In this document: piece by piece, positions 6,676 through 57,949 of the stretch | Position numbering within the stretch: position 1 is the stretch's first letter | How the letters are laid out: each line of letters opens with the position of its first letter | Assembly: GCF_016808095.1 (NCBI RefSeq) | Contig: NC_068970.1 | Location: 41,699,630 to 41,763,629, forward strand | Origin: Vigna angularis | Taxonomy: Eukaryota > Streptophyta > Magnoliopsida > Fabales > Fabaceae | Length of the DNA: 64,000 nucleotides | Direction of reading: 5' to 3' | The notes under the pieces: generated by a model | Databases searched by the model: none | Told to the model about the DNA's origin: nothing | Seen by the model: the letters and a program-made list of their open reading frames with translations, nothing else | Translations under genes and position numbers: made by a program

Positions 6676-9600
6676 CTAAAACGAAACATCTTCGGAAATA
6701 AATGCAGCCCATGCATCCTGTTTCAATGTGAAGATGAAATCAACAATGATCCTCAGACCTCGGTGAATACTTTATCGCCTAAACAAACAATGATAGAAGC
6801 AGAATTTGTTTATATATATGGTCTAGAAATTTTACAAACCTGAAGAATTGAGAAAGCCTTCTCTGCTACATACTTCTGTAGGGATGTTGCTCCTCTTTGC
6901 TGCAGTTTGTCTGGATGCAGGCATAACCTTGCTTTCTGATAAGCCTTTTTCACTTGTGAGCTTTCTAGTAGACTCATAAGAGGAATAGCACGCCAACCAC
7001 TCTCAAGACATAGAATCTAGTAATTAAAAAAAAATCAGGTCAATTCTCCTGTTGTGTTTGTCAAAGTGGTATAAAACTGCAGATTTGATAAACCGTCAGC
7101 TGTAGGAAATCAACAAAGAAAATCTTACATGATGCAGTGTCGAAAGTAGTAGCCTAATATCTCTTTGCTTGCCAGATGACCACAATCTTATATCTCCGTC
7201 CAATTTTTCTGTCTCAGTCAGTCGCTTCTGTAGAAAAGACACAGCTATCAATAATCTTAATTTTAACGACATACAAATAGAAATAAAGGAAAATCCTAAT
7301 ATGAACTAGTGCCTTTACAAGGTATGCAAGTTTTAATTGCTTCAAAAAATACAAGTGCTTTTAGCTAGAAGTTAACTTTTACTCATTTTTAATAACATAC
7401 ACTTTCTTTATCATTCTAATCTGATTCTGAATCTGTATGGTTTTGATTTCATTCTTAGTTCAAAAATCACTTATATATACAAAAGTATATTCTGCCATTT
7501 ATTTTTTTAAACAGTATCTTTTAGCAACTAGTAAAGTGATACTGTGAATTGGTGGTTGTGTCATCAATCAATCTTTAACGATTGGCCAAGCATGGAATGA
7601 TTGAAATTGAAATTACTTCAAAAAGGATAGGTTGTTATTAGATTATTGGCTTTTTCTAAAAGAAATTTGTTTTAAAAAAATATCTGGTTAATCTTTGTAT
7701 CAGTTATATGACATGATCTTCTGATTACTTATTTAAGCATATCCAATACATTACCTCCATTGGGTAAATTATTCGAGTCCCATCATCATGGTGGTATTCA
7801 CTTGCATCAGATCTTCCTGCACATAAGGATACAAATGTAAGTGTCTACTATTGTCTGTTTCAGGACTAAAATATGTTGTTAACTTCGTAGGAAACTTGTC
7901 TTTTTCAAAGATAATCACCTTGTCTTCCAACAATTTGCTCATTTCTCGCGCTTGATTCTTCATCAGAGTTTCGTGATTGAAACTTCTCTTTGGCCCATGC
8001 AATTGCATCATCAATGGCGGATGCTCCACACTCTTCCCTTCCCAGGTTGGAGTTGAGTTCAATGACATAGGAGCTCATAACTTCATCATCCTCATCTTCG
8101 TAATCATCACCTTCTATAATTTGTTCTGAGAACACGTGCTCATGGACTGAAAGTTTTGTCTGAGGTTCTTGATAAAGCGAAGAGGAGACAACAGAAATTG
8201 GGGAATTGAGCTCCCAGTCATCGAGAACTTTGATGTTTTGGTACGAATTGGATTCAAAACTAACTGTTTCTGGGGACGAGACTCTTCTTGAGGATCCTAA
8301 AGGGGAGCTTCTGAAGTTCTGCTTGAATTCGTTATTATCCTGAAGCTGAAATTCAAATAACTGATCATTGCATGCAAAAAGTGGCACCCCATGTTTACTT
8401 GAGTATTCCTCAGCCTCCGGCATTACGGTGGATGTGTTCCATCTCCATTGAACATTGATTGGCCTGTAGCAATCAATAGGAACACTCAGAATTCCATTAC
8501 TGCATTACCATATTTTCATGAAGTTGTTCTTATTCTTTAATCTAATTCTATAAAATCAACGTATTTAATTGTAGAAACTAGAAAGCCTAAATAGTGATAG
8601 ATTAAAGTTATTGACAATGAAATGGTTTCGTTTAGACTGCAACTTTATGGTGCTCTGCTTAGCTGAATCCTACTTCTAAATAATCTCTAATGTTGGTTGG
8701 ATATTTGGTTATTTTATTTCAAAAAAAGAAACTATTCTTGCATCAGTAATTTCGAAAAAGCTAGCCCCCAAACTTTACAGGTCAAATTAAAAGCATGTAA
8801 AGACACATTGCTACGTATATTTAGTAATTGTTTCAGATAATTTAAATTTAAAATAGAAGTTCTAAAATTCAATAAAAATAGGAACTTAAGGAAAATGAAT
8901 TTTTTTATCCTATCATAAATTGATTAATAAGTTATATCTTAAATGGTTTATCATTGATTGATTACGTCTGTGGAAATAAGAAAAGAAAAACAAGAGAAAT
9001 GTTTCCTTGCGCTCTTTCTAAACCATGACGTTTTATTTGATTAAATTTTATATCTTTTAACCAAATTTTAACCAGTAAGCATTCTTCTCATTCCACCGAG
9101 AAATCCAATTCAACAATCCAAGAACAAGAGATAGCACATACAAACATACCTTGGCACCAAGGGCTTAAATTTCAAACTATAAAAAAAATGGAAAGAGTTT
9201 TTAGTTTTGTTCTCAAGTAGGAATCTTATCCGTTACCAGTACCTGTGCTTTGAAGAAAAACCACAGAGTGCCACGTCATCTCCAATCGCCGGCCGTCGAG
9301 GGCTCAGCTCCTCCGAACTCAGTGCCGACGACGAATTCTCCTTCGACAGCGACCTCGACCGCTCTCTCGATTTCCGCCCATCGTCCGACCCGAATATGTC
9401 GCTGTAAAATCCCTCATTCCTCGCCGGAATCCTGAACACTGGCAAGCTCCGGCCACCCTTCGCCACTGGACACGTAAACTCTGGCGCCCTGAATATTTCT
9501 TCGTAAAACGACCCGCAGCTTGAGATTTTGTGCGCCAGCAGAGTCCGCGGTGGCCCCCCAAACACATCAGCGAAGTCGTCAGCGTCCAAGGCTTCCAAAT

Positions 9601-9715
9601 TTCCGGCGCCGGAGAAGAGGGCCTGTCGCCGCCGGGTTGATGATCGGTCCTCCAGCGGTCGACGGCGATGGAAACCCCGCATTAAGCCAACGCCGACTCT
9701 CTGCGACTCGTCCAT
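6676..9715 (-). CDS. Auxilin-like J-domain protein, six exons
   Basis: Exons on the minus strand are 9715-9243, 8463-7919, 7816-7755, 7227-7129, 7016-6840 and 6717-6676. All introns are GT-AG and the phases agree, giving 466 codons including the TAG stop (465 residues). The N-terminal part has the auxilin-family signature DFADVFGGPPR. The middle is acidic and serine-rich and probably disordered. The C-terminal ~95 residues are an auxilin-type J domain with DIRLWSSGK, KKAYQKARLCLHPDK (the HPD motif near residues 427-429) and the end DAWAAFISEDVSF. Such J domains stimulate Hsc70 ATPase to strip clathrin from coated vesicles; plant relatives include JAC1 (chloroplast movement) and the AUL proteins. 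The C-terminus fits neither subgroup exactly as I remember them, so no symbol is assigned. The start is the first ATG after a TATA box. No damage is seen. It is the only intact host gene visible. Confidence 0.85.
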
Positions 9716-35841: not shown

Positions 35842-36449
35842 GTTGGTGGGAGATGGTGATGATATTGGAACCATGATTAAATTGGATTCTAGTAATTATT
35901 AAATATGAAAATCCTAATGGGAAAGATATTTTATTTTACAAACACCTATCAATTTTTTGAGTAAGGAATTATTGAAATACAAGGATAGTTTCTATGTGGC
36001 AGAACACTTACATTATTATTGCTTAGTTCGTTATCGGAAAATTTTGAAATACAAGTGATAGTTTTGAAATACAAATATGGTTCTATATGGGAGAAAACCT
36101 AAGTATTTTTTTAGAATATGATGAATCAGTTGATATGATGGTTAGATAATAAGTTACATTGTTATTACTTAATTCACTACTAGACAACTAGTGGACATGA
36201 TATCTCTAAACAATTTTGTTCCTAATGAGAAACTGACTTTCGGCAAGGTCAAAGATATTCTATATAACCCTTCACTAGTGTAGTCAAGGGAAACGACAAT
36301 GGTTATTTTCGCTCATAGGCAGCGGTTCTTGAACCGAGACATATATAGCGAGGTAAAAAGTCTACCTCTTTTTGCCTCAGTTGTGAACCGAGACAGTATC
36401 TCAGATTCTACTGTCTCGGCTAGGACTTGAACCGAGGTAGTAGAGTGTT

Positions 36450-36860
36450 TTCCAAAAGCACAACAATACCACCCAAAGCTACAACCATACCACCCAAAGC
36501 TACAATAATGCCAATGTAAGCATGCTTCCAATCATTGTAGCGATCCCCTACGGAAACCTCCAATGCCTCGAACCCTTTAAATATGTTGATGATACTAATG
36601 ATTATGGTGGCGTATCCGATGGCGTAGTGGTAGAAGTTCCAGTAGATTTCTTATTTTGTGATCCTTGTTGGGCCTCAAAAGTAGAGCAAAAACCTGTATT
36701 CAGCGAAAAAGGTAGTTTCTTTGAGCCCCCATAACATTCAAAAGAAGAGGGTTCGGAAACAAACAAACGAAGAACATCTCATAAATCATACCTAAAGGGT
36801 TCCAAGGTAGAAGAGGGTGATTCCGAGTGCTCTATGGGTGTCGTATGCAAGTGAAACAAA
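36450..36860 (-). pseudogene. Captured fragment of a cytochrome b561/DOMON-domain gene
   Basis: On the minus strand, 36860-36792 reads LAYDTHRALGITLFYLGTL followed by TAG where family members have Gln. A GT-AG intron follows (36791-36694). Then 36693-36450 reads VFALLLRPNKDHK, a one-base insertion, WNFYHYAIGYATIIISIINI, FKGFEAL and DWKHAYIGIIVALGGMVVAL. These are the THR, HKYRFYWN.YHH and WK.AYIG segments of plant cytochrome b561/DOMON membrane proteins, including their fourth and fifth membrane helices. The text stops at LLE, where CACTA subterminal repeat begins. The intron is retained, so capture was at the DNA level. The nonsense change, the frameshift and a small internal duplication (VALGG twice) show that it is not functional. 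Confidence 0.8.
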
Positions 36861-37497
36861 AGCAACAATTTTCTTCTACCACCACAACAACATTACAAAT
36901 TCAACCGCACTTCCACACCGACAAGCTTCAATATTTCAGCATCACAATTCCACACAGTATGTTATCACTTCATCACATTCTCCTCCAACAAAAGTCCCAA
37001 AGTCTAAAACAATTATCCAACTTTCTTAGCACCTAGTTAATTTTCCAAACCAGAAGTAGGAACTAAAATAAAACCCTAATTGAATAATTTCTTAAAGGAT
37101 GAACTTCTCCACTCAAAACTAAGAAAAAAAACATAACCCTAAGAATTCCCAGGTCCGCCGAACAACGAAGCCAGAAAATTTAGATGTCCCGGAAGGTGAT
37201 TCCCCACCCTAGCCGCCGACACTTCTCCAATGACCTACTACTGCTGACGTTGGTGATGAGCAAAGAGCGACGCCTACTGTTGCGACACTGACACGGCGGC
37301 GGGCTGCACGACCATTTCTGGAGCGGCGACGAAGCTCCAAATTTGTCTGAAATCGGGGCTAAAAGGTAGGGCCACAGTCCGGGCGGGGTAGAGGGGCCCA
37401 CGGAAACAATGTCGTCCTTGGAAGTGTCATCGTCGGTGCGTATGCGCTTGCCGAGGATGAAGGGCGTGGGAGCGAGGAGCTGCAGCTTGTGGTCGGA

Positions 37498-37570
37498 GGC
37501 GGAGGAAGGCGAGGATAGAGGCGCAAGAAGGCGAGGATAGAGGCGCAGGAAGGCGAGGATAGAGGCGTAG
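37498..37570. repeat. 22-bp tandem repeat, about three units
   Basis: The unit cgaggatagaggcgcaggaagg occurs about three times, near-identical. It lies in the GC-rich interior of the CACTA element and gives artefactual Arg/Ala-rich frames. Confidence 0.8.
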
Positions 37571-38097
37571 AGTTGGCAAAAAATAGGTACTTACATTTCT
37601 TCTTCTTCGAAATGAACCCCCGCTTGATCTTGCTTGACTGGCACCAGAAAGAAGATCCAAACTTTTCTTAGATTGGATGTTGGACAAAGAATGCGATTGA
37701 GGGGTAGAATCAGAGAGAGGAAAGGTTTTACGCGAAATGGGCGAGGAAGAAGAAAACTAAAGGTTGTTAACCCCCTGGAAGCGATACTACTTCGGTTGGC
37801 AGTTAAACCGAGGCATAAACACGTTTTCATACCGGTTCTGGGTGAACCGAAGCAGTAGGTTAAGCTCAAAAAGCTGAAAAGTCTATTGTGTAGAGGGGTA
37901 GGTGGAATTGCATGTTGTTAGGCATCGATTGTATGCTTTAACCGAGGTAATAAAGCTTATATGCTTTGATTCCCTTTGAACCGAGACATATAAGTTCGAC
38001 TAAACTACAAAAATGCCACCATGTTTTAATAAGCTTCAGTTTCACCTAAACCGAAGCCTATTGTGCGAGTTTAAATAGCGTTTTTTTACTAGTGCTT

Positions 38098-41070: not shown

Positions 41071-43289
41071 ATGGACCACTTTAAGAGTAACCCTTTAACT
41101 TTGGTTGATGATCTTGCATCTGAAACTCCTGGTCCATCTGAAAGTGCTACCAGAAATAAAAAAGAAGTTTCAAATATTTGGAATTTTTTCACAAAAATAG
41201 GAAAAGATGAGGATGGCATTGAAAAGGCTGCATGTAAGTATTGTGGCAATAACTACAAAGTTGGAAAACACCCTGTTACTAAAAATAATTATGGAACTTC
41301 ACATTTAAGTCGACATGTCAATGCGTGTAGAAGTATTGCAAACTTAGATGCGGATATGAATCTTTTCCAAGAAGGAAAGTTTGGGACACGAAAAATCAAT
41401 CAAAAGATTCATCGTAAGTTACTTGCAAGAGCCATAATTAAACATAGTCTCCCTTATAATTTTGTTGAATATGAAGGAATCAGGGAGTGGATAAAATACA
41501 TTAATCCGAATGTTGACATGAAATGTAGGAACACTACTGTATCAGATGTGGAAAAGGAATACATTGAACAAAAGGATAAAGTTAAGCAAATCATGTCTAA
41601 GATTCCTAATAGAATTTGTTTAACCTCTGATGTTTGGACTGCAGTTACTTCTGAGGGATATATTTGCCTAACTGCACACTTTGTTGATGAAAACTAGAAA
41701 TTGACAAGTAAGATTCTTAACTTCTATTGAATGAAACCACCACATACAGGTGTTGAACTAGAAAGTGTTGTGTTTGATTGCCTAAAGCAATGGGGTATTG
41801 ATAAGAAAATTTTCTCAATTACCCTGGATAATGCTTCTGCCAATAATAATTTTCAAGACATTTTAAAAAGCCATCTTTGTGTTCATAGAAATTTATTATG
41901 TGATGGTGAGTTTTTCCATGTACGATGTTGTGCTCACACTCTTAATTTGATAGTTCAAGATGGTTTAAAGGTGATTGACAGAGCACTCCATAGTATTAGA
42001 GAGAGTATTAAGTATGTTAAATCATCAGATGGAAGAACTCTCAAATTCAAAGAATGTATTAGTGATGTTGGCATAAATATGAGTATGGGTTTGAGATTAG
42101 ATCTGACTACAAGATGGAATTCAACCTATTTAATGCTGGAAAGTGCAATCAAATATAAGAAAGCTTTTGAAATTCTCAAAGTGGTTGATAGAAATTATAA
42201 AAATTGTCCATCTTTTGAGGAATGGAATGGGGGGAGAAAATATGTCAATTCTTAGAACCATTTTATGAGATTACAAACATGATGTCTGGTTCATCTTATC
42301 CCACTTCAAACTTGTATTTTATGCAAATTTGGAAAATTCAGCTTATCATTGAAGAGAATTTGTTGAATGAAGATCTCACCTTAAAGGATATGGCTTGGAA
42401 TATGAAAGAAAAGTTTCAAAAGTATTGGAAGGAGTATAGTATTGGGTTAGCTTTTGGAGCTATTCTTGACCCACGACTAAAAGTTGATTTTATAACATAT
42501 TGTTATAAAAAATTGGATCCTCTAACCTATGCAGAGAAAACAAAGAAAGTGTTAGAGAAGTTCAAGAGGTTATTTAAAGAATATGTAAAGAATTTTTCTA
42601 TCCCTGGTGTTTCTCTTTCTCAATCACCTACTGAATCCATCTTGATGTCTCAATCTTATACTGAAGGGAAAAAGTTTAAGAGATCAAGGATTATTTCGGT
42701 AAGCATTTTATGTCTAGTGTTCATTTTTTTTCCAGTTTTTCTAGTTTCGTTTTGATAATTAATATGTAATGCATTGTAGGATTTTAAGATGTATCAAAAT
42801 GAATCAAAATCTATTGTTGGAAAGAACGAGATAGATGTTTATTTAGATGAACCAACAATAGATGATGATGAAGACAGTGAAGATTTTGATGTGCTCAAAT
42901 ATTGGAAGACTAATGAGAAAAAATTTGCCATATTGTCTATAATGGCTCGAGATGTATTTAGTATTCCCATTACTACAGTGGCATCAGAGTCAGCTTTTAG
43001 CAAAGGTGGGCGTGTACTTTCAAAATATAGAAGCTCCATTTTTCCTGAGCATGTGCAAATGTTGATTTGTACTCAAAATTGGCTATATGGATTTTCTGAA
43101 AATCCTAGCGGTGAGTGTATATGTTATTATTTTTAAAATTACTTTATATTAAAATGATTAATTATATAGGCTAGTTGTTTGATTGTATTTCAATTGCTTG
43201 TGATAGATGAAATTGTTGAAGATATTTTTGGTCATAAGAGAATTGATGAGTCTAATCTTTTAGAAGATGTTGAAAGTCTTCAACATTGA
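41071..43289 (+). pseudogene. hAT transposase (BED finger, hATC), broken
   Basis: Exons are 41071-42698, 42780-43110 and 43207-43289, with GT-AG introns and compatible phases. The protein begins with a BED zinc finger (ACKYCGNNYKVGKH, then HLSRHVNAC, residues about 48-90). The catalytic RNase H-like region follows (ICLTSDVWTAVTSEGY; FHVRCCAHTLNLIVQDGL). A hAT dimerisation domain ends it (LSIMARDVFSIPITTVASES, then SAFSKGGRVLSKYRSS). Two in-frame stops occur soon after HFVDEN, at 41695 (TAG where Trp is usual) and 41728 (TGA). A frameshift occurs in the G-run near 42230. The rest is well preserved, so inactivation is fairly recent. The family is the plant RICESLEEPER/Ac-like group. Domesticated relatives exist, but the intact terminal repeats show this one is a transposon gene. 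Confidence 0.9.
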
Positions 43290-45370: not shown

Positions 45371-45386
45371 ATTGGTATCAGAGCTT
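45371..45386 (+). promoter_or_regulatory. Primer-binding site (initiator-Met tRNA)
   Basis: attggtatcagagctt directly follows the 5' LTR. It is complementary to the 3' end of plant initiator methionine tRNA, the usual primer of copia elements. Confidence 0.9.
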
Positions 45387-45404
45387 GCTTTGATAGTCAT
45401 TCAA

Positions 45405-47018
45405 ATGGCAGGATCACATCAAACCTTTGCAGAGGGTGCTTCTATCAATAGACCACCACTATTCACAGGTGAAAATTACGCATTCTGGAAGGTAAGAATG
45501 CAAATTTTTATGGAATCTATTGATATAGATATTTGGGATGCTGTTGCATCTGGTCCTTTTGTTCCAATTAACAATATGCAGGAACCAAAGCCCCGTGACC
45601 AATGGACTGCTCAAGATAAGAAAAAAATTGGTAATGATGTAAAAGCTCGTAATATTATTTCATCTGCTTTAACTGTTGATGAGTTTTACAGGATTTCTAT
45701 TTGTAAAACTGCACAAGAAATGTGGGAAGTACTTAAAGTAACCCATGAAGGTACAGATGATGTTAAGAGAGCTAGAAAGAATACCTTAATCCAGGAATAC
45801 GAAATGTTCAGGATGAAGCAAGGGGAAACAATAGTAGATGTTCAAAAACGCTTCACCAACATTGTCAATCATCTCATTGGACTAGGTAAATCTTTCGATA
45901 CTGATGAGCTTAATATAAAAATTCTGAAATCTTTAGACAGGTCTTGGCAACCAAAAGTGACTGCAATTTCTAAGTCACAAAATCTGAACACCATGACTAT
46001 GGCGGCACTTTTTGGAAAGTTGAGGGAACATGAACTTGACCTCGGAAGACTAGATGAAGAAGAAGCAAAAGCAAAAACTAAGAAAAAGAGTCTAGCCTTG
46101 AAATCTGAGGTTGAAAGAAGCAAAGGTAAATCGGAAGATGAAGACTCAGACGAAGAAGAAGAATTGAGACTCATGATAAAAAGGCTCAACAGGTTCATGA
46201 AGTCTAAAGGCAAAGGAAAATTTAGATACGAAAAGAAAGATAATCCAGTATCTTCCTCAAATTACCGATGCTATGGTTGCGGAGAAAAGGGGCATCTAAA
46301 AGCAGACTGCCCAAATCAAAAGAAAGGTGAAGAAAAGAAATTCTTCAAGAAAAAGAGAGCGTACATCGCATGGGAAGACGACAATGAGACCATTTCAGAT
46401 TCAAGCTACTCAGATGAAGAAGCAAACATCTGTTTAGTGGTAAATGACGACGCTGGAAGCCAAGTAAGTACATCTAGCGATTCTGATAATTCTAGTCAAA
46501 TTAGTGAAAATGAATTGCATGAAATTTATGCTGCTTTAATAGTAGAATCTGAAAAATTAGATAAAGCCCATCAGAAATTGAAAAAGGATTTCAAAGAGTT
46601 AAAATTGAATTTTGAAAATACTCTTGAAGAAAATCAAAATTTAAAAACAAATTTTGAAACTATTATTGATGAAAATAAAACTTTGAAAAATAGAGTTTTA
46701 TTTCTTGAAAAGGGTAAATTTACTAGTAGTGATGAATGTGTTTCTTGTGAAAATTTTAAGAAACTACTAGAACAAACAACCTCAGGAGAATGTAGTAAAA
46801 ATAATGAAAATAAGGTTGTTAAAAATAAGTATGTTCCTAGAATTAAAAATAAGCATAATTATAGAACCCGTAGAACTTGGGTAGAAAAAGGAACAACTTA
46901 TAGGAACACAAATGTTGTATCATGCTTTTATTGTATGAAAAAGGGTCATACATCTAACAAATGTAAAATTAAGCATTATGGTGTTCCTAGTGGTAGATAT
47001 ATTTGGGTTGTAAAATGA
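45405..47018 (+). CDS. Gag polyprotein, intact (537 residues)
   Basis: The start is ATG at 45405 (MAGSHQTF); the open frame extends upstream into the PBS without another ATG. Residues about 25-200 form the copia Gag (UBN2-type) domain, with PPLFTGENYAFWKVRMQIF and KRFTNIVNHLIGLGKSFDTD. A lysine/acid-rich linker follows. The first CCHC zinc knuckle (CYGCGEKGHLKADC) is at residues 289-302. A long coiled coil lies at about 380-445, and a second CCHC knuckle (CFYCMKKGHTSNKC) at 507-520. There are no stops or frameshifts. Gag forms the cytoplasmic virus-like particle and packages RNA. Here it is the only full coding region of its element. The homologue at 56613-57915 has lost the first knuckle. 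Confidence 0.92.
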   Translation: MAGSHQTFAEGASINRPPLFTGENYAFWKVRMQIFMESIDIDIWDAVASGPFVPINNMQEPKPRDQWTAQDKKKIGNDVKARNIISSALTVDEFYRISICKTAQEMWEVLKVTHEGTDDVKRARKNTLIQEYEMFRMKQGETIVDVQKRFTNIVNHLIGLGKSFDTDELNIKILKSLDRSWQPKVTAISKSQNLNTMTMAALFGKLREHELDLGRLDEEEAKAKTKKKSLALKSEVERSKGKSEDEDSDEEEELRLMIKRLNRFMKSKGKGKFRYEKKDNPVSSSNYRCYGCGEKGHLKADCPNQKKGEEKKFFKKKRAYIAWEDDNETISDSSYSDEEANICLVVNDDAGSQVSTSSDSDNSSQISENELHEIYAALIVESEKLDKAHQKLKKDFKELKLNFENTLEENQNLKTNFETIIDENKTLKNRVLFLEKGKFTSSDECVSCENFKKLLEQTTSGECSKNNENKVVKNKYVPRIKNKHNYRTRRTWVEKGTTYRNTNVVSCFYCMKKGHTSNKCKIKHYGVPSGRYIWVVK

Positions 47019-53479: not shown

Positions 53480-56400
53480 CTATTTTACTATTTCTAATAT
53501 GCCTAGATCTCTTCTAAGCTCAAAAAATCTATCCTTAGGCAATGCTTTGGTGAAAATGTCCGCTAATTGATGCTTAGAATCTATGAATTCCATTTCACAA
53601 TCACCTTTTTGGACATGGTCTCTAATGAAGTGATGCCTAATTTCTATATGCTTGGTTCTAGAATGCATGATAGGATTTTTGGTAAGTTTTATAGCACTTG
53701 AGTTATCACACTTAAGCGGAATATGATCTAAATGAATATCATAGTCTTCTAATTGTTGTTTCATCCATAAGATTTGTGCACAACAACTACCCGCAACAAT
53801 GTATTCAGCTTCAGTGGTTGATAAAGCTACACAAGCTTGTTTCTTAGAGTGCCAAGAGACTAAGGAACTACCTAAAAAGTGACAGGTTCCACTAATGCTT
53901 TTCCTATCTATCTTACAACCTCCATAATCAGCATCAGAAAATCCTACAAGACTAGGCTCAGCTCCTGAAGGATACCATAAACCAAAGGATGTTGTCCCCT
54001 TAAGGTATTTAAGAATGCGTTTTACTGCAGTAAGATGAGACTCTCTAGGGCTTGACTGATACCTAGCACACACACATACACTTTGCATGATATCAGGTCT
54101 ACTAGCAGTAAGATATAATAGAGAGCCAATCATACCTCTATATTTGGTCTGACTTACCTCTTTACCTGTCTCATCTTTGTCTAAGTAGCAGGATGTTCCC
54201 ATGGGAGTTGATGCTTCTTTAGCATTGTCCATCTCAAACTTTTTAAGGATTTCCCTGCAATACTTTGTTTGAGATATAAAGGTTCCTTTCTCCATTTGTT
54301 TGATTTGAAGTCCGAGGAAGAAAGTAAGTTCTCCCATCATTGACATCTCAAATTCTCCCTGCATGGACTTAGCAAAATTCTCACAAAGAGTTGCGTTAGA
54401 TGAACCAAAAATAATATCATCGACGTATACTTGAACAATTAGAAAATGTTTTCCAATTCTTTTAATAAATAATGTTGAATCAATTTTTCCTCTGTTGAAA
54501 CCATTTTCTACAAGAAAATTGCTAAGACGTTCATACCAAGATCTAGGTGCTTGTTTTAAACCATATAGTGCTTTCTTTAATTTGTAGATGTGATTTGGGT
54601 TTTTAAAATCCTCAAAACCAGGTGGTTGTTCAACAAATACATCTTCTTTGATATTACCGTTTAGAAAAGCACTTTTAACATCCATTTGAAATAATTTAAA
54701 TTTCATTATAGATGCATAAGCAAGAAGTAGGCGTATTGCCTCTAACCTGGCAACTGGAGCGTATGTCTCATCATAATCTATACCTTCTTCTTGACTATAT
54801 CCTTTTGCCACAAGCCTAGCTTTATTCTTGGTGATGTTTCCTTCTTCATCCAGTTTGTTTCTGAACACCCACTTTGTTCCAATTACTTGATGAGTGTCTT
54901 TTCTGGGAATTGATTCCCACACTTGATTTCTTTCAAACTGGTTGAGTTCTTCTTGCATTGCGATACACCATTTTTCATCTTGAAGGGCTTCTTTAATATT
55001 CTTTGGTTCAAGCTGTGACACAAAAGCAACATTCATACAATAATTTACAATATTACTTCTTGTGTTTACCCCTTGTGTGATATCGCCAATTATGTTGTCC
55101 AAAGATAATCCTCTAGGTTGTCGCCATATTTTATTTAAATCTTCATCTTGAGGATTGTCATGATTCGTCTCTTCATTTGTCTCCTTTGATGAATCTTCAC
55201 TTGTTCCTACATCAGATTCTTCTGACTCAAGAGGTTTTGCCTCAAGGTCCACAATTTCATCAAAAGTAACATGTATGGATTCCTCTATTGTGAGCGTTTT
55301 CCTATTAAAAATTCTATATGCTTTGCTTGTTAAAGAATAACCAAGAAATATTCCTTCATCAGCTTTTGAATCAAATTTTCCCAAATTTAGTTTTCCATTG
55401 TTTAAAACATAACATTTGCATCCAAAATTTTTTAAATGGGAAACATTTGGTTTTCTATTTTTGAAAAGCTCGTAAGGAGTACGTTTTAAAATAGGTCGAA
55501 TTATCATTCTATTTAAAACATAGCAAGCAGTACTCACAGCATCAGCCCAAAATTGTTTAGGAACATTATTTTCATTTAACATAGTACGAGCAAGTTCCTC
55601 TAAGGTTCAATTCTTTCTTTCTACAACTCCATTTTGTTGAGGAGTTCTAGGTGAGGAAAATTTATGAGAAATACCATGTTCTTCACAAAAACTTTCAAAT
55701 AATTCATTTTGAAATTCACCACCATGGTCACTTTTAATAGCTTTTATTCTTAGATCCTTTTCATTTTGAACTAAAACAGCAAACTTTTTAAATTCTTTAA
55801 AAGCTTCACTTTTAAGAGTGAGAAAGAAAGTCCAAGTGTATCTTGAAAAATCATCAACAATAACCAAAGCATAATAGTTTCCACCAAAACTTTTTATCCT
55901 TGAAGGACCAAATAAATCCATATGTAAAAGTTCCAAAGGTTTTAAAGTAGAAACAATATTTTTTGAATGAAAGGAATTTTTAACTTGTTTACCCTTTTGA
56001 CATGCATCACACAATTTATCTTTTACAAACTTTAATTTAGGTAATCCAATTACTAGATCTCTAGATATAAGTTTGTGTAATTGTTGCATATGTATATGAG
56101 CAGCACGCCTATGCCATAACCATGGGTTTTCTTCTTTAACAACTAAACATGAAATATTTTTATTTGATGCATTTTCTAGATCAATTAAATAAATATTATT
56201 ATGTCTAACTCCTTTTAATGCAATTTCAGAAGAATCATTCTTAAAAATAGTGCAAGAATTCTTCTCAAAGGTTACCTTGAATCCTTTGTCGCACAGTTGA
56301 CTTATGCTAATTAAGTTATGCTTTAGTCCTTCTACATATAGCACGTCTTTGATCATCAAGGTGTCTTTGCTTCCTATATCCCCTTTTCCAAGAATTCTTC

Positions 56401-56542
56401 CTTTGTTGTTGTCACCATAGGTAACAAAGCCTTGTTCCTTTTCTTTAAAATTTGTGAACTTCGTCTTATCTCCTGTCATGTGTTTTGAGCAACCGCTATC
56501 GAGACACCACATGACTTTTCTTGATTTCTGTAATACCTGCAA
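53480..56542 (-). pseudogene. Copia pol: protease, integrase, RT, RNase H, one nonsense codon
   Basis: The protease motif CLDSGCSKHMTG lies near 56480-56515. The integrase zinc-binding part is at about 56000-56110 (HRRAAH, CDACQKGK). The integrase core has LLHMDLFGPS, IKSDHGGEF and VVERKN. The reading frame then meets TGA at 55607-55609, where an Arg codon (CGA) is usual, and continues in the same frame. RT has QMDVKSAFLNGNIKEDVF and the catalytic YVDDIIFGSS (near 54417). RNase H has SDADYGGC, LSTTEAEYI and KCDNSSAIKL. The end is KALPKDRFFELRRDLGI. Apart from this one stop, pol looks complete. Gag and pol are separate frames in this element. Confidence 0.92.
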
Positions 56543-56612
56543 AAGAAAGGAACAACCAAGCTATTTTAGGTACCCAACTTCTTTGTATGGGTCCTTTTGG
56601 GTTAGATTCAAA

Positions 56613-57915
56613 TTACTTAGCAACCCAAACATATCTTCCACTAGAAACACCAAAACGTTTAATTCTGCATTTGTTTGAGGTATGGCCTTTTCTCATGCAG
56701 TAAAAACAGGATACAGCATTTGTGTTTCTGTTAATCGTTCCTTTTTCTACCCATGCTCTGCGGGTTCTATATTTATTTTTAGGAACAAATTTCTTAACAG
56801 CTTTATTTTCAGAGATTTTACTACATTCTCCAGTGGTTGTATTTTCAGAAAAATATTTGAATTTTATGCAAGATTCACATTCATTATTAGCAATATATTT
56901 TTCTTTTTCATAATATAAAACTTTACTTTTCAAATTTCTGATTTCTTCTGCTTGATATAAAAATTTATTTTTCAAACTTCTGTTTTCTTCAGACAAATTT
57001 GTAAATTCGGTTTTCAAAGCATCATTTATTTTAGAGAGATTTTCAGAAGTAAACTTCAAATTTTCATTTTCTTCAAGAAGGTTGTCAAATTCAGATTTTA
57101 AATTTTTAAAATCCTTTTTCAGCTTTTTATGAGAAATATCTAATTTTTCAGATTCAATTAATAATGCAGCATATGTTTCATGCATTTCATCTTCATCAAT
57201 GTGACTATCATTATCAGAATAGTGTGAACTACTTACTTGGCTGACATTATCATCATCTGCCATCAAACAGATGTTTGCTTCTTCATCTGAGTCGCTTGAA
57301 TCTGAAATGGTCTCATTGTCGTCTTCCCAGGCAATGTAGGCCTTCTTTTTCTTGAAGAATCACCTTTGGTTGCCACGACCTGTCTAAAGACTTCAAGATT
57401 TTAATGTTAAGTTCATCGGTATCAAATGACTTACCTAGTCCAATGAGATGATTGACAATGTTGGTGAAGCGTTTTTGAACGTCTGAAATTGTTTCTCCTT
57501 GCTTCATCCGGAACATTTCATACTCTTGGATTAAGGAGTTCTTCCTTGCCCTCTTTACATCATATGTTCCTTCATGCGTCACTCTAAGTACGTCCCACAT
57601 TTCTTGAGCAGTTTTGCAGACAGAGACCCTGTAGAACTCATTAACAGTCAATGCTGATGCAATGATATTCTGGGATTTTACGTCATTCTGAAATCTTTTC
57701 TTTTCTTCAATGGTCCATTGACCACGGGGTTTTGGTTCCTGTGTATTGTTAGTAGGAACAGAAGAGCCAGACGCAATAACATCCCAAATTTCACAGTCAA
57801 TAGATTCAATAAATATTTGCATTCTTACCTTCCAAAATGCATAGTTCTCACCTGTGAATAGTGGGGGTCTATTGATTGATGCACCCACTGCAAAGGTTTG
57901 ATGTGATCCTGCCAT
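56613..57915 (-). pseudogene. Gag with an internal ~380-bp deletion and frameshift
   Basis: ATG is at 57915 (MAGSHQTF). The N-terminal Gag domain is intact up to SLDRSWQPKV (near 57360). There the sequence jumps to what is, in the intact homologue at 45405-47018, 380 bp further on. The first zinc knuckle is lost and the frame is shifted, giving a stop at 57313. The rest continues in another frame to 56613, with the coiled coil and the second knuckle (CFYCMRKGHTSNKC). The word aaaggtga at the join also occurs near the far breakpoint in the homologue, suggesting deletion between short direct repeats. Confidence 0.88.
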
Positions 57916-57931
57916 TTGAATGACTATCAAA

Positions 57932-57949
57932 GCAAGCTCTGATACCAAT
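57932..57949 (-). promoter_or_regulatory. Primer-binding site (initiator-Met tRNA)
   Basis: Minus-strand attggtatcagagcttgc directly follows the 5' LTR, identical to the PBS at 45371. Confidence 0.9.

Follow-up and report, generated by a model that had tools for sequence, protein, structure and literature searches.

A CACTA-type element carrying pieces of a cytochrome b561/DOMON gene and a TCP7-type gene in a Vigna-like legume

The element and its ends

The window analysed here, a stretch of 64,000 nucleotides (64 kb), holds a CACTA-type element of 1,822 bp at 36273-38094, whose two termini are flanked by copies of the trinucleotide CTT and adjoined on the inside by clusters of short repeats. 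Its structural features are as follows.

36270..36272: target-site duplication CTT, left copy
36273..38094: CACTA-type element, whose 7-bp ends form the only such pair in the window to be flanked by a 3-bp duplication
36273..36279, plus strand: left terminal repeat, CACTAGT
36329..36445, plus strand: left subterminal repeats of AACCGAG type (ACCGA at 36333, 36387 and 36431)
37790..38055, plus strand: right subterminal repeats (ACCGA at 37807, 37846, 37941, 37980 and 38050; TCGGT at 37792)
38088..38094, minus strand: right terminal repeat (ACTAGTG as read on the plus strand)
38095..38097: target-site duplication CTT, right copy

CACTAGT occurs eight times in the window and ACTAGTG seven times. 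Under a rule that asks for a spacing of 300-20,000 bp and a matching 3-bp duplication, the two ends of the element are the only pair of such 7-bp ends that passes. When the ends are relaxed to CACTA and TAGTG, the same rule passes 20 pairs, so that ends of this kind, even together with a duplication, are unconvincing by themselves. Subterminal repeats clustered near both ends are a trait of CACTA elements, and here nine ACCGA/TCGGT motifs fall within 200 bp of the element's left end and 350 bp of its right end, as against 43 in the whole 64 kb. This is the highest count among the eight of the 20 looser-end pairs that were listed; the other seven have 7 and 3 motifs (two pairs sharing one element end) or 1 each (the remaining five). 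With its CACTA...TAGTG ends, its CTT/CTT duplication and subterminal repeats clustered at both ends, the element has the features of the CACTA superfamily, and the preliminary description of it as structurally complete holds on all of these points.

Perfect agreement between the two termini extends over no more than 7 bp, further positions agreeing at chance-like spacing, and the repeat is shorter than the 10-54 bp that one account gives for terminal repeats in the superfamily (PMC4938662); decay of the element's left end may be responsible. So short a repeat could be taken to mean that CACTA-like ends happen by chance to frame an ordinary duplicated pseudogene. This we find hardly credible, given that ends, 3-bp duplication and subterminal repeats coincide, that no second pair of this kind exists in 64 kb, and that the gene matches described below all end inside the element. 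No transposase reading frame is present among the frames listed for the element. Nor did blastn find a second copy in the window, returning the self-match and a 17-bp subterminal repeat pair inside the element only.

The b561/DOMON and TCP7 pieces

Between its ends the element carries coding DNA of two host genes, as is characteristic of a Pack-CACTA. From right to left, which is the direction in which all of the pieces read, the cargo comprises the following features.

37595..37720, minus strand: b561/DOMON linker exon A, residues 170-211 of the family by P0011 and P0004
37578..37594, minus strand: splice donor GTAAGT with the first bases of a probable b561 intron, truncated by the TCP7 piece
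37142..37577, minus strand: C-terminal coding part of a gene for a TCP7-type transcription factor; it contains three TAG codons, a 22-bp tandem repeat and, near 37360-37384, a change of frame
36858..37141, minus strand: intervening stretch of 284 bp, in which the best similarity to the tail of P0001 did not exceed that of shuffles
36792..36857, minus strand: 3' part of b561/DOMON exon B, certain from 36845 and probable to 36857, with TAG at 36792-36794
36694..36791, minus strand: retained b561 intron of 98 bp, GTATGA...ACAG (GT-AG)
36453..36693, minus strand: b561/DOMON exon C, decayed, placed by tblastn with P0004; extra base near 36648 and a 21-bp tandem duplication

Of 1,653 candidates in a protein search with a joined query, 257 had E values of 1 or less, and 120 of these were listed. 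One half of the query finds full-length legume cytochrome b561/DOMON proteins, with P0004 of Vigna umbellata at the head of the list (E 4e-48; 89% across the part that matches). The other half finds TCP7-type proteins, with P0001 of V. mungo the best listed (82%, E 3e-58) and TCP7-named legume proteins among the best matches listed. When nine proteins from this search were aligned by tblastn to the whole window, every match fell within 36273-38094. Full-length P0004 is placed on the minus strand twice, by residues 171-212 at 37717-37592 (E 5e-16) and by residues 275-369 at 36857-36474 (E 8e-36). The cargo had been described beforehand as a piece of a minus-strand b561/DOMON gene confined to the element. 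Its identity and its confinement stand, and the account was incomplete, having overlooked both the second b561 piece at 37595-37720 and the TCP7 piece, which takes up a large share of the element's middle. The fragment had also been said to face inward; it reads instead toward the nearer, left terminus.

Of the b561/DOMON gene, the element retains the linker and the final portion of the b561 domain. Neither domain, DOMON or b561, is intact, and for the joined fragment the Pfam family Cytochrom_B561 gives 20.7 bits (E 5e-4), below its curated cut-off of 23 bits. A stop and a frameshift had been reported in the fragment, and they are seen as the TAG that ends exon B and as the extra base near 36648. 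The internal duplication, put at 24 bp in the same account, has a period of 21 bp (36462-36503), with 20 of 21 bases alike. The GT-AG intron between exons B and C is kept, and exon A is followed by a GT donor with a few intron bases, so that capture took place as DNA and not as spliced message, much as first proposed. The predicted protein P0106 switches to unrelated letters just before QVFALLLRP, at the position of the window intron; this apparent read-through suggests that an intron sits at the same position in other plants.

Within the TCP7 piece, P0001 aligns by tblastn on the minus strand at 37546-37142 (E 2e-36), and P0003 covers the same stretch in two frames. The start of the piece is certain to about 37518 and tentative to 37577, where 13 residues of P0002 agree at 77%. 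It begins past the TCP domain and stops near the end of the coding sequence. Pfam gave no family match for three TCP-like pieces, the TCP DNA-binding domain included. The 22-bp tandem repeat, in 3.3 copies at 37496-37567, lies in a serine-rich tract. Solved structures yielded no convincing match for the b561 query (best E 0.059) or for the TCP7 query (best E 0.047). Searches for DNA-level relatives returned none for P0004 in viral_contigs and genome_contigs and none for P0001 in viral_contigs, as is to be expected for a plant gene.

The 284 bp that separate the TCP7 piece from exon B were considered as 3' flank of the TCP7 gene, the tail KKIAASVSLA of P0001 resembling window text that adjoins exon B. 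Shuffling gave this no support. The best score for 36849-37141, a region that omits the last residue of the KKIAASVSLA match, was reached by 27 of 300 shuffles, and the alignment giving that score was a different one.

On the minus strand, then, the order is b561 exon A, TCP7, and b561 exons B and C, all directed toward the left terminus, with about 62 b561 residues (213-274 of P0004) missing at the position of the TCP7 piece. Nested capture, or the filling of a break, would be the simplest account of this order.

Relatives of the hybrid and decay of the window copy

The same order recurs in P0007 (LR48_Vigan11g114900), a 206-residue gene model of Vigna angularis, the adzuki bean. The hybrid thus exists beyond the window too, and carries a gene annotation there. 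P0007 aligns with exon A of the window at 88% over 49 columns, both read in the same frame, which is not the native one, and with the TCP7 piece at 37529-37449 by 21 of 27 residues, in a frame foreign to TCP7. It then carries b561 in the native frame, up to ...LLEA. The part of P0007 that aligns lacks the 22-bp repeat of the TCP7 piece. On both sides of that piece P0007 retains b561 sequence that is missing in the window; the two are therefore not unaltered copies of one hybrid.

When the two non-native frames served as query, P0007 was the single protein out of 177 candidates to reach E 10 or better. With P0007 as query, 550 candidates yielded 89 proteins with E no higher than 0.001, and P0006 of V. 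umbellata ranked next after the self-match. P0006 likewise ends at LLEA; a TCP7 piece could not be established in it. P0097 (V. angularis VIGAN_09082300) holds part of exon C only, flanked on both sides by unrelated text, and may likewise have come about through shuffling or through annotation. All three are known as protein models only. In a tree of the b561 part (143 rows, 93 columns, built by a quick method, mostly with weak support and with 4 of 119 inner branches starred), the window fragment is not grouped with P0006, P0007 or P0097, and lies closer to full-length P0004 (path 0.052 vs 0.073). Since the tree does not join them, the kinship of the hybrids rests on their shared order of pieces.

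These comparisons bear on where the hybrid arose. It could have formed at a chromosomal locus, as a broken b561 copy filled with TCP7 DNA, and been taken up whole by a CACTA element later. The two b561 pieces come from one gene and stand in order and on the same strand around the TCP7 piece, which showed no terminal repeats of its own in the repeat search, and P0007 may itself be such a locus. This route needs an extra, unobserved locus, and otherwise nothing speaks directly against it; we regard it as rather unlikely.

P0007 also raises the question of function. Being an open model that joins both b561 pieces with the TCP7 piece, it would be the putative working member if the hybrid were expressed in Vigna as a new chimeric gene, with the window copy a dead one. 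Such a role seems very improbable: in P0007 neither exon A nor the TCP7 piece is read in a parental frame, the model has no precomputed Pfam domain, it was the single match to the query of non-native frames, and the window copy bears stops and frame changes. The case also suggests that the cargo of a transposon has entered the adzuki annotation as at least one gene model.

How far the window copy has decayed can be gauged from 242 residues aligned in six segments with P0004 or P0001, a comparison that skips the surroundings of the frame change in the TCP7 piece (about 37358-37383) and the last stretch of exon C. There are 26 differences, 3 of them in the region of the 21-bp duplication, and 20 that come down to a single unambiguous base change. 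When the relatives' residues are taken as ancestral, C>T or G>A accounts for 17 of these 20 (11 and 6, respectively). All four stops within the 242 residues are TAG where the relative has Gln. Methylated cytosine, including that at CHG sites in silenced elements, deaminates to give C>T and G>A changes, and the substitution pattern fits deamination of this kind in a silenced, presumably methylated element. Judged by these lesions, the fragments in the window copy are pseudogenised and encode no working protein.

It had been suggested that transcripts across the cargo could give small RNAs against the parent gene, a proposal that can now be extended to both the b561/DOMON and the TCP7 parents. 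The element does hold long similarity to both genes and is probably methylated. The two fragments share one orientation, and the repeat search reported no long inverted copy of either inside the element (longest reported arms, 19 nt), so that no self-made hairpin is evident. Decay, moreover, reduces the match to either parent. We consider a silencing role of this kind improbable.

Origin of the element and known CACTA systems

We conclude with considerable confidence that the element is a non-autonomous CACTA, of Pack-CACTA type, in a legume that the best protein matches mark as Vigna-like, and that it represents a nested capture from two genes that is now pseudogenised. Its cargo would derive from the genomic DNA of one cytochrome b561/DOMON gene, beginning with the linker exon and reaching almost to where the b561 domain ends, along with its introns, in the middle of which a TCP7-type piece replaced part of the b561 sequence. 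On this account the b561 segment would have been taken up between two CACTA ends; a break within it would then have been filled by TCP7 DNA, unless the TCP7 piece was present already; the hybrid would have been mobilised and spread; and the window copy would have decayed under methylation. Whatever mobility the element may have would depend on a transposase supplied from elsewhere. Gap filling with template switching has been described for animal Pack-TIR elements (PMC8277862), and tandem insertions that are re-mobilised have been described as an uptake route for plant Pack-TYPE elements (PMC8903248).

The element resembles the Pack-CACTAs in being a non-autonomous CACTA with captured coding DNA. 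In maize it is common for such elements to draw on more than one source locus, and several loci are described as entering one element through tandem insertion and re-mobilisation (PMC8903248), whereas here a piece of one gene lies inside a piece of another. The same source reports that some Pack-CACTAs of Arabidopsis have been misannotated as protein-coding genes (PMC8903248); P0007 may be a similar case of transposon cargo called as a gene.

Among legumes, the 5.7-kb soybean element Tgm-Express1 is described as having captured five fragments of host genes, and its chimeric transcripts are proven (PMC1947982). Like it, the window element is a legume CACTA whose cargo consists of pieces, exonic and intronic, of host genes that are unrelated to one another. 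Unlike it, the window element measures 1.8 kb and draws on two genes, one inside the other. The small element pvCACTA1 of Phaseolus vulgaris, said in its description to be absent outside Phaseolus, has terminal repeats of 145-158 bp (PMC4938662). As a non-autonomous member of the CACTA superfamily with a 3-bp duplication, pvCACTA1, from a related legume genus, is similar to the window element, which differs in its 7-bp terminal repeat and its gene cargo. Captured fragments have been described for CACTA elements of Chenopodium as well (PMC8978399). Of three papers listed by our literature search on cytochrome b561 together with CACTA, none is titled on such a capture, and we claim no wider absence.

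CACTA elements with several captured gene pieces are thus a known kind, to which the window element adds one more, a compact legume case of gene shuffling. Its points of some interest are that one gene piece is lodged inside another and that the hybrid is present in an annotated adzuki gene model. Since one captured piece lies within the other, a comparison of copies can reveal in which order the capture proceeded. More speculatively, the nested-capture hybrid may have been spread by CACTA transposition among Vigna species and, in one or more of them (V. angularis, P0007), may have become an expressed chimeric gene or a source of small RNAs acting on a membrane redox gene and a TCP regulator. 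We hold this broader scenario to be improbable; were the hybrid expressed, or a source of small RNAs, a transposon would be tied to a redox gene and to a growth regulator.

Elsewhere in the window, two minus-strand frames of 172 and 160 residues at 7905-9715 have no Pfam match at E 0.001 and look like host-gene exons. On the plus strand at 41071-42755 there are hAT-type transposase frames in pieces, with a BED zinc finger at 41071-41697 and a hAT-like RNase-H fold at 42222-42755. Two copia-type retrotransposon stretches lie in opposite orientation, at 45372-47018 (plus strand; gag and zinc knuckle) and 53480-57948 (minus strand; integrase and reverse transcriptase), and their gag N-termini are similar.
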